A stretch of DNA of 64,000 nt from Ricordea florida (taxonomy: Eukaryota > Cnidaria > Anthozoa > Corallimorpharia > Ricordeidae), in the NCBI GenBank assembly GCA_949710005.1, contig OX453274.1:35147714-35211713 (forward strand), read 5' to 3'. Shown in pieces: positions 25,382 to 45,475 of this stretch (the first letter of the stretch is position 1; every line of letters starts with the position of its first letter). A program made the translations under genes and the position numbers. The notes under the pieces are model-generated. The model did not search any database, was not told the DNA's origin, and worked only from the letters and a program-made list of their open reading frames with translations.

Positions 25382-28300
25382 TTAACTTACTTCATGCGCA
25401 AGGTCTATCCATGTCCCGGTGTTGACATAAATCAACTTTCCAGCTCTGTTCTTTATTCTGGTCTCTTCCCAGAGATGCGTGTGTCCCAGTACAACAACAT
25501 CCTCTCCACACTTGCAGAGGAAATCAAAATAATTGCCCAGTGCTCCTTTTAACATGTGATACGTCTCAGTAGGACCAAACTACCAAAACAAAATCATGTC
25601 ATAATCAGCTACCTGCATGAATTCGTTTGGACTATATTTCATTTACTTAAACTAGGTAAGTCCCTCTAGTCATTGCCAGGGTTAGTTTGTTAGGATAATA
25701 ATATACATGCAAAAAATTTCAACGCGCTGATTGGCCGAGAGCACTTCAATTAATCCCAAACACTGCAGAAATTTGCAATTGAGTGCAAAAATGTGGAATT
25801 AAATTTTTACATTCATATTAGTAAAGGTAATCATACGGTTTCAAGTCCAATTTGGAATTAATTTGCAGGAGTGAGTTTTTCAAAAAGCTGAAATTGCACG
25901 AGCCGCTTCGGACAGGAAGTGAGCATTTGAAGCGGATTTAACACTTTATTTACTGATTGGCTGATGAAGATCAGCTGATAACGCTACGAACTCAAAGCGG
26001 TTTGTTTAAAAATAAAGGATATCATAATCCAGAATATCGATGTGTAATTTGCACTGGTGTTACACATTTTGCATTGGTTTTACACTCTTTGCACTGGTGT
26101 TACACTTGAACTGCACGGCTCTCAGAAAATCAGAATCGAGTTCCTTTTTCATGTATGTTATTAACTATTGTTACATACCGTTTCTAAAGCGCGCTGTATG
26201 TATTTGTACTTCATCACATTTGCCATTTTTACCCATTTCCCGCCATCTAACAAAACGTATTCCTCCTCGTTAATGTCACGCTCCAGTGCCGTCTCGATCA
26301 AAGTTTCTGTGAGGCGTTCCTGTAAAGCAGGTCTGGCCAGTATTTCAGCAACAAACGATCCAAGGCCATTGTCAACCATTCGCAAAATGCTGGTGGTGAC
26401 GTTTCTCAAAACCTGAATAACATGAAAATACGGTTATTTCCTTCTCACTGCATCAAGAAATAATGATATCAAACTAATCCATATGCGTTATTATTGGCCA
26501 GGAGTGTGGTCAAGGTGGCTACATATTGGCCAAGTTCCTTTCTGCATTTTTTATTGGCTGAGATGAGGCTAATATCCAGATATCTTGTCCTAAGAAGCTT
26601 TCTTAATAACGATTTATTATTCAGCCATTTATTATTTTGATTCACTAGCAATCCAGAGCGGGCAAGATTGGTCCATTATCTCGGGTAGCCAATCAGATCT
26701 TAATCAAATTTGTACGCCTCAAAAACTGACATTTCCTTAATAATGGAGCCGCAAGTCTCCAAAATAGTCAGTGGAAAAAAAAGATGTCATAACGAGCCTA
26801 CACAAATTAAAACCGTCAGTTGATAGTGTCAGATGCCCCAATCAGAACCGCAGAGGAACTGACACGTTAGTGTAAAATGAATGGCAAATTTGCTTTAAAA
26901 ACTGGGAATGAAAAGCGAACCACTGATAATCAGCACAGTGCAACATCAACACCAAAGAGACATGTGGACATTGAAACAAACACTAAACGAGTGCACTTGC
27001 AAAGAAGAACCAATACTTAAGCAATAAATTGACGAAGTTCGTATGCAATATACGTAATTGTTGTTAAGATCAAAACAAGGACTTGAAAAAAAGAACTTCT
27101 TGTTAACCAATTAATGGACGAAACGTCGACGTAGTAGATATAATTGTTAGGATAAAAACAAGAAGTCAAAAAAATAAGAACTTGTTAACCAATTAGTTGA
27201 TAGTGACGCAATAGTTGTAATTTAAATACAACAGTATAAACGTAAGTGACCACATCTGTTAATGCATTTAGTCCAACGGCACGATAGCGACCGGACAAGC
27301 TGAAACTGTAAAATCTCGCTGAAGAAGACGTTTAAGTCGAAACCGGTCCAGGAATTGGCTTGTTTAGGTTTGAGACGGCTGGATCGACACCCAACCATAC
27401 GTGCTCACAGGACTTCAGGTGTCCATCCTTAATTTCCAGTGAGAAACCGCAAGGGAGGTTCCAATATGAGAGATGGGAGGCAGGCAGGATCTAGATAAGA
27501 TCTCCTGGCAAGAGAGACTGTGCAAATTATATCTTCCCCCTATACTTCTTTCGTGCTCTCGTCACCCTCCTGCGTGCTTTATAAGAGAACAAAGTCAGGT
27601 GGAGACTTATTTGTTTGTTTAATATATTACCTCCTCTGTTTCTTTCATATGAAATTCAGATGTGGCTACTGCTCGTGATACGTAATATCCAATTGGTCGG
27701 CCTCCGAGTGGATCATCTGGTCTGATCAAAGAGTAAGTGTTGAACAAATCCCAATCATGCCCATGCGCAAACCGGACCCTGTACTGCTGTCCATCATCAC
27801 TGTTGATGACGTAAATCAGAGTTCCTTCAATGAAATCCACTTTTCTTCCCATCAGCCTAGCAACTGCGTTCGCGTCCAATTCATGATCATGGTTGCCCCT
27901 AACGTAGAATATATTTACATCATCTTCTTCGGCCATCTTACGTATGACGTTAAAAAAGAGGGAACAAGTCTCGTTTGAGGTCCACTTAGTGATATGTTCT
28001 TCCATCGTTGGGGGCGAAAGGGATAGCGGGTAAAGCCACATCTCGAGTACATCCCCCAGAAGAACTAAAGTGTTCAAACTGACCTGCAATGCAACATGAT
28101 AACTTTTACAGGGGCTCATATCAGTTAACGTTTCCATCTGAATCATTTCCCAGCGACCATAGCTTCCTGCCCAGTTGTTTTTAGTGTAGTAGTATGGGAA
28201 GAGAAAACAGCACACTGCCATTACCTGCGAGCTGGGACCTCGGCGGACCTCGCGATTAAACATGCAGCAGGGTGGAAGCTCACTTTAACAACACTGTCTT

Positions 28301-45475: not shown

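Follow-up and report, generated by a model that had tools for sequence, protein, structure and literature searches.

The window analysed here is a stretch of 64,000 nucleotides from the corallimorpharian Ricordea florida (GenBank assembly GCA_949710005.1, contig OX453274.1, positions 35,147,714 to 35,211,713). Its minus strand carries an intron-rich gene model for one large protein that joins a GMC oxidoreductase, an alpha/beta hydrolase and a calcineurin-like metallophosphoesterase. This architecture and the kinship of the protein with bacterial enzymes are very probable. It is somewhat less certain, while still being the reading that we prefer, that this anthozoan gene of bacterial ancestry represents a complete bacterial three-part module turned into a single chain.

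Eighteen exons between window positions 45475 and 24226 join into 4,767 nucleotides encoding 1,588 amino acids (aa), in phase throughout, with the sole stop at the end and with GT-AG intron ends. A preliminary description of this DNA, made from the letters alone, had proposed such an 18-exon frame of about 1,600 residues, and the exon chain stands; its end at 25382, however, does not, since the stop-bearing exon lies at 24318–24226. This last exon is phase-matched and encodes FSYARIVPP...NEGTV followed by the stop, and its counterpart in the paralogue introduced below is conserved. Along the frame the GMC oxidoreductase is followed by a beta-rich linker domain, the hydrolase, an acidic linker and the phosphoesterase. 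The motifs quoted in the preliminary description are indeed present on the minus strand. Positions in the protein are 38 and 510 for GSGYGAS and HPLGGC (GMC), 848 and 1067 for AHCAGS and YGHLDC (hydrolase), and 1238, 1276, 1329, 1373 and 1527 for SDLHLD, GDVLEMW, GNHDHE, HGHDWD and GHTHLW (phosphoesterase). According to Pfam, all three modules score above the family cut-offs: GMC_oxred_C and GMC_oxred_N reach 49.4 and 41.4 bits (cut-offs 24.6 and 23, respectively), Abhydrolase_1 reaches 32.2 (25.8), and Metallophos (PF00149) reaches 34.2 (21.5).

The genome searched (G000, 538 Mb in 48 contigs) has the window gene on contig C3 and, on contig C16 (6802097–6826125), a paralogue whose three modules follow one another as in the window, and searches with both gene halves gave only these two loci among the matches listed. 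The copies share 17 colinear blocks, 35–78% identical, which correspond to 16 exons of the model plus one exon kept in the window only as a remnant; in this comparison, nothing in C16 matches the first exon or the acidic linker exon. All five metal-ligand motifs of the phosphoesterase occur in both copies. The claim of three enzyme modules in one intron-rich gene model holds, as the Pfam scores, the tblastn matches to bacterial proteins given below and the recurrence of the modules in this old paralogue are well beyond chance. Nonsynonymous divergence (dN) between the copies is 0.23, 0.34, 0.31 and 0.32 for the GMC, linker, hydrolase and phosphoesterase parts, respectively; synonymous divergence (dS) is saturated in all four, and hence no dN/dS ratio is given. 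The dN pattern is consistent with purifying selection on each part, the parts having been kept together since one old duplication. The C16 donor after the linker-domain exon (near 6808710, L099) reads GC rather than GT (CAAG/GCGAGT), which might indicate a GC-AG intron.

Bacterial relatives of the modules

According to the tblastn search of plasmids, 73 records give any match, and in 7 of them the match extends over 80% or more of the GMC-hydrolase part, with 96% covered in every case at 34–40% identity. A pattern scan of prokaryote genomes keeps the best 80 of 143 relatives, whose best segments are 24–47% identical. Among sampled whole genomes, profile matches at E 1e-60 occur in 8 of 395 from one phylum and in 60 of 195 from the Corallococcus phylum, and at E 1e-100 in 9 of 398 from the Pseudomonas phylum; many of these matches cover only the GMC or only the hydrolase part. 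Phages yield three weak partial GMC matches. The five bacterial GMC-hydrolase proteins first aligned have 1,134–1,169 residues, in agreement with the roughly 1,100 given in the preliminary description. In a GMC tree of 54 rows, the coral pair (support 100/100) falls inside a 30-row, otherwise bacterial clade (97/93), with weakly resolved nearest neighbours (83/71). The preliminary description had looked to trees with a bacterial sister clade for support; for the GMC module the nesting among bacteria was obtained, and a well-supported sister was not. A genome search with PF00732 listed a different GMC gene (C4:332192–333437; L001, L002) and not the fusion copies, so the GMC module of the latter has drifted far from the family model. 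Among the titles listed in searches of an open-access library, none concerns such a three-enzyme gene.

As for the third module, comparing the coral phosphoesterase with 24 bacterial phosphatases by BLAST at E 1e-4 gives four unconnected sets of 16, 5, 3 and 1, in which the coral protein groups with Variovorax and Rokubacteria neighbours. At locus L175, a phosphoesterase gene (PF00149, 34.8 bits) lies just upstream of a full-length GMC-hydrolase, and its product aligns with the coral module over 365 aa (E 2e-14; 300 columns in hhalign, E 4e-12). The coral phosphoesterase has no plasmid match at 1e-5, no PDB match at E 0.01 (none at E 1 for the Rokubacteria neighbour) and one weak match among 15 genomes and records. 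With its profile, 4 of the 193 Corallococcus-phylum genomes show partial matches, as do 6 of the 193 with a wider profile, which contains the protein of genome G466 itself.

A metallophosphatase is fused or lies within 4 kb in 23 of 37 GMC loci with a hydrolase versus 7 of 52 without a detected one (Fisher p 2.7e-6, uncorrected for relatedness, the loci being phylogenetically non-independent and partly found by the same profile). This count covers the 89 of 100 given loci that have a GMC match at 1e-10, 11 being dropped; L023 and L172 are identical in sequence, and the phosphatase set compared by BLAST was drawn from these loci. The Pfam cut-off is reached in 19 of the 23 hydrolase-bearing phosphatase loci (exactly at the cut-off in L024) and in 5 of the 7 hydrolase-free ones (L022, L023, L172, L039 and L040, as opposed to L015 and L050). 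Among individual loci, L004 has an annotated metallophosphoesterase scoring 19.5 against 21.5, L005 was counted on motifs with no Metallophos hit, L036 and L190 have the phosphatase on the opposite strand with no Pfam hit, and the match at L176 is a 266-aa gene about 3 kb away. In L040 there is additionally a weak Abhydrolase match that stays under the cut-off, and the contigs of L039 and L050 run out in the GMC or close to it. An earlier count based on regular expressions only was 10 of 25 versus 4 of 28.

The arrangements vary. A gene annotated as metallophosphoesterase (Azospirillum) or an unannotated frame with phosphoesterase motifs (Persicobacter) lies directly upstream of the GMC-hydrolase, and a phosphoesterase gene adjoins the fused GMC-hydrolase at, e.g., L169 and L175. 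L170 has three unfused genes in a row (phosphoesterase, GMC, hydrolase), whereas L034 and L044 encode GMC-hydrolase-PhoD fusions. In Bryobacterales (L009) and Pseudomonas (L010), the GMC-hydrolase is followed by a RoxA-like cytochrome c and then by a metallophosphoesterase. The association of bacterial GMC-hydrolases with metallophosphatases is new here. Since the link recurs with separate phosphatase families, the coral phosphoesterase gains a functional partner by independent evidence.

Alternative explanations

Several results weigh against the adoption of a complete bacterial module as one maintained chain, and they are given here together with the explanations on which they bear. The most serious of these, which we consider only a little less probable than its opposite, is that the window copy is a duplicate in decay, or one that has already lost its function, and that the working enzyme comes from C16 only. 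One linker-domain exon of the window copy is reduced to its second half, and a repeat, perhaps of the Harbinger type, sits where the first approximately 34 codons and the acceptor belong, so that the GIRFTEKM stretch common to bacteria and C16 is absent. A whole-window search did not find the missing piece, and none of the phase-compatible internal exons in 40283–39646 (14 and 20 for the two donors) resembles the bacterial GIxFTExM stretch; the repeat insertion and the intact C16 copy explain this absence. With the exon half lost at the insertion, C16 may thus be the working copy. However, the remaining window exons are open, their splice sites and active-site motifs are intact, and an intact form of the damaged exon may exist on another haplotype. 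In addition, the C16 counterpart of this exon appears to be in phase 1 at both ends, so that skipping it keeps the frame, and the 1,588-aa model is written without the remnant.

Ancient eukaryotic inheritance, e.g. from a bacterium that gave the gene early on to a forebear of many eukaryotes, is rather unlikely compared with a transfer that entered the animal or cnidarian lineage. The long coral stem (0.99) and the missing well-supported bacterial sister speak for it, and the exon boundaries common to both paralogues suggest age; the tree was also rooted at the midpoint, with the coral pair as its only eukaryote rows. Under the preferred transfer into the animal line, the direction would be from bacteria to animal, which is what we infer from the sequences.

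Further points against a takeover of the complete module concern the phosphoesterase and the order of the parts. The phosphoesterase of L196, from another genome of the phylum of L175, scores better than that of L175 (E 9e-15 versus 9e-11); there is no GMC in the 3,450-base locus of L196, and its genome (G452) is absent from the 60 genomes with a GMC-hydrolase profile match. A profile of the two coral copies alone does not report G466 at E 1e-4. The coral protein has the phosphoesterase last, in contrast to many bacterial loci, in which the phosphatase gene comes first. Finally, the GMC module scores 159.8 bits with the cholesterol oxidase equivalog NF058674, far below its cut-off of 850.

It is improbable that the locus comprises two adjacent genes, a GMC-hydrolase and a separate metallophosphoesterase, that were duplicated together. 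The five bacterial GMC-hydrolases first aligned do stop after the hydrolase, and the acidic linker exons of the two paralogues show no sequence likeness. In both coral copies, however, the hydrolase frame goes on without a stop beyond the end of these bacterial proteins and reaches a donor whose position and phase are shared, while the first phosphoesterase exon begins at an acceptor and its conservation already starts ahead of the first Met. In each copy, a candidate exon of matching phase bridges the two modules; the scan for linker exons gave two candidates in the window and three in C16, none on opposite strands. A single transcript over all three modules is thereby predicted. As for bacterial contamination or an assembly artefact, the bacterial likeness of the protein would suit it, but it is hardly conceivable on a contig that extends past 35 Mb, with an adjoining rhodopsin-family receptor gene and with GT-AG introns, given also that the locus contains a repeat found across the genome and that a different contig has a second copy with introns.

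Active sites and proposed working

The solved structure nearest to the GMC module is cholesterol oxidase (E 4e-36). HPLGGC and GVNP align with 4u2l, i.e. the coral protein retains both catalytic residues of cholesterol oxidase, His and Asn, and the role of this pair in the C-terminal part of GMC enzymes is treated in the relevant passage of PMC6719666. Glu361 of cholesterol oxidase (numbered as in structure titles) falls in an unaligned gap between two aligned stretches. A C-x2-C-G-x-C-x3-C cluster is present in 52 of the 54 GMC rows, with C210, C216 and C220 in A1 numbering. The spacing of these three, C-x5-C-x3-C, equals that of the three Cys ligands of the 3Fe-4S cluster in the glucose dehydrogenase of B. 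cepacia, which depends on flavin adenine dinucleotide (FAD), as given in the corresponding passage of the same paper (PMC6719666). This suggests that the GMC part is an iron-sulphur (Fe-S) flavodehydrogenase rather than an oxidase, with putative Fe-S binding. The RoxA-like cytochrome c at L009 and L010 would be a possible electron acceptor, which fits a dehydrogenase.

The hydrolase is nearest to gastric and lysosomal acid lipases. In its nucleophile column, both coral copies and 41 of 42 distinct bacterial segments have Cys (residues were first counted on 54 loci, 53 with Cys, of which only 42 are distinct), and His and Asn are found in 38 of the 38 bacterial segments aligning there. Instead of the Ser of a serine or acid lipase, the nucleophile is likely Cys. 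The conserved Asn stands where lipases have Asp. An AlphaFold model of the Bryobacterales protein L009 has a mean predicted local distance difference test score of 59 and a predicted template modelling score of 0.37; its fold matches are the same as those of the sequence searches and, the model being of low confidence, only back them up. Regarding the classes given in the preliminary description, the three enzymes stand, and two are refined: the hydrolase probably has a Cys nucleophile, and the GMC part seems dehydrogenase-like rather than an oxidase.

On the simplest reading, an Fe-S flavodehydrogenase, a Cys esterase or acyltransferase and a phosphatase would act on one lipid-like substrate. 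The phosphoesterase would strip a phosphate or phosphodiester group off this substrate, the lipase-fold Cys enzyme would cleave or transfer its acyl ester, and the GMC domain with its His/Asn pair would oxidise the freed sterol-like hydroxyl, the electrons passing from FAD to the Fe-S cluster and on to an outside carrier instead of oxygen. This chemical scheme is tentative: the catalysis, the substrate, the order of steps and the sterol or lipid chemistry are all predictions, and so is the order of oxidation, hydrolysis and dephosphorylation hinted at in the preliminary description.

A wider scenario, which we offer with reserve, is that bacteria repeatedly build a lipid system from an Fe-S GMC dehydrogenase, a Cys lipase-fold enzyme and a metallophosphatase of several unrelated families, as separate genes or as two- and three-part fusions. 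An anthozoan ancestor may have taken the complete system and fused it independently into an enzyme remodelling membrane lipids or sterols, which was then duplicated and kept. If true, this large protein in an animal nuclear genome, with two old copies that look selected, would stand out as an instance of a complete bacterial module taken up by an animal. Through the bacterial association, the pathway can also be tested in bacteria, in which genes are easily removed one at a time. Corals are not known to make their own sterols. An enzyme able to act on esters of sterols or lipids would be relevant to the lipid traffic between host and alga, which is speculation.

Coordinates, neighbouring genes and known systems

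Table 1. Features of the three-enzyme gene in the window; identities are to the C16 counterpart.
Feature	Position	Strand	Evidence
Putative first exon (11 residues), least certain	45443..45475	-	ATG, GT donor, phase 0; without C16 match
Exon 2, GMC FAD-binding motif GSGYGAS	45109..45355	-	C16 72.6%
Exon 3, GMC with C-x2-C-G-x-C-x3-C cluster	43280..43770	-	PF00732 E 9e-7; C16 77.6%
Exon 4, GMC	42049..42558	-	C16 59.5%
Exon 5, GMC HPLGGC, catalytic His by alignment	41104..41425	-	PF05199 E 1e-7; alignment to cholesterol oxidase 4u2l
Exon 6 (18-exon model), 11-residue stretch, catalytic Asn by alignment	40283..40453	-	C16 71%
Repeat insertion at expected site of next exon's 5' half	39657..40178		39 other scored genome places, 91–97% identical in the part searched; extent from copies L103, L104
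Linker-domain exon remnant (FEFTVT...TISQG), outside 18-exon model	39513..39646	-	First ~34 codons (GIRFTEKM...) gone; intact in C16
Beta-rich linker domain	36740..37215	-	Bacterial alignment; C16 49%; strands in bacterial structure model
Alpha/beta hydrolase, N-terminal exon	35671..35807	-	Pfam, bacterial alignment
Alpha/beta hydrolase exon	34751..34886	-	Bacterial alignment
Hydrolase nucleophile elbow AHCAGS (probable Cys)	33365..33681	-	Cys in 41/42 distinct bacterial segments
Alpha/beta hydrolase exon	32826..33079	-	Bacterial alignment
Hydrolase C-terminus (AGEKN, YGHLDC) and extension past bacterial C-terminus	31564..31827	-	Extension and donor also in C16
Acidic linker exon, hydrolase to phosphoesterase	30421..30679	-	Phase-compatible open exon; sequence not conserved in C16
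Metallophosphoesterase SDLHLD	28792..28972	-	Pfam; C16 67.7%
Metallophosphoesterase GDVLEMW, GNHDHE, HGHDWD	27631..28083	-	PF00149; C16 61%
Metallophosphoesterase insert region	26179..26412	-	C16 35%
Metallophosphoesterase GHTHLW, NTGTW	25391..25579	-	PF12850 E 0.004, below cut-off; C16 67%
Last exon with stop codon	24226..24318	-	Phase 0, stop at 24226; C16 53%

A long (ATAG)n tandem array occupies window positions 25076–25330, just past the exon ending at 25391. The 3' part of the gene and its surroundings contain related stretches of low-complexity repeats (23350–23700, 24415–24700 and 33608–33925), and similar translated stretches occur in the C16 copy. Just upstream of the fusion gene, a rhodopsin-family G protein-coupled receptor is encoded in one open frame at 48637–49821 (minus strand; PF00001, E 8e-51), and a C-type lectin domain is located at 58944–59474 (minus strand; PF00059, E 4.5e-22). 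At 3829–5097 (minus strand), the remnant of a reverse transcriptase precedes a GIY-YIG stretch, each scoring under the Pfam cut-off; together they are presumably an element of the Penelope type. Expansions of the green fluorescent protein family mark anthozoans, and the genome has 61 matches to this family, in keeping with an anthozoan host.

Among known systems, the cholesterol oxidases of Streptomyces and Brevibacterium are the best solved relatives of the GMC module and share its catalytic His and Asn, whereas the coral cysteine cluster is unmatched in the alignment and the equivalog cut-off is not reached. Lysosomal acid and gastric lipases are the best sequence and fold match of the hydrolase (the fold model being of low confidence) but differ from the coral family, which has Cys in the nucleophile column. 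The phosphoesterase has DLH, GDxxExW, GNHD, HGH, GHTH and NxGxW, the motif pattern of LpxH-like calcineurin phosphoesterases; unlike LpxH proper (UDP-2,3-diacylglucosamine diphosphatase), it scores 19.9 bits with NCBIfam PRK05340 against a cut-off of 134.

Bacterial GMC-hydrolases, e.g. WP_338815766.1 of Bernardetia and WP_149201188.1 of Azospirillum, are annotated as 'GMC oxidoreductase' or 'alpha/beta fold hydrolase'. They are colinear with the coral protein over the GMC, beta-rich linker and hydrolase parts and share the Cys cluster, HPLGGC, GVNP and the Cys-His-Asn set. In contrast to the coral gene, they have no introns and stop after the hydrolase, and the metallophosphatase, if present, is usually a neighbouring gene. 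As for the fusions of Acidovorax sp. CF316 (L034, 1,886 aa) and an uncultured Variovorax (L044), their third module belongs to another phosphatase family, PhoD (PF09423), and their GMC lies on a more distant branch; they have, however, the same order as the coral protein, with GMC and hydrolase followed by the metallophosphatase.

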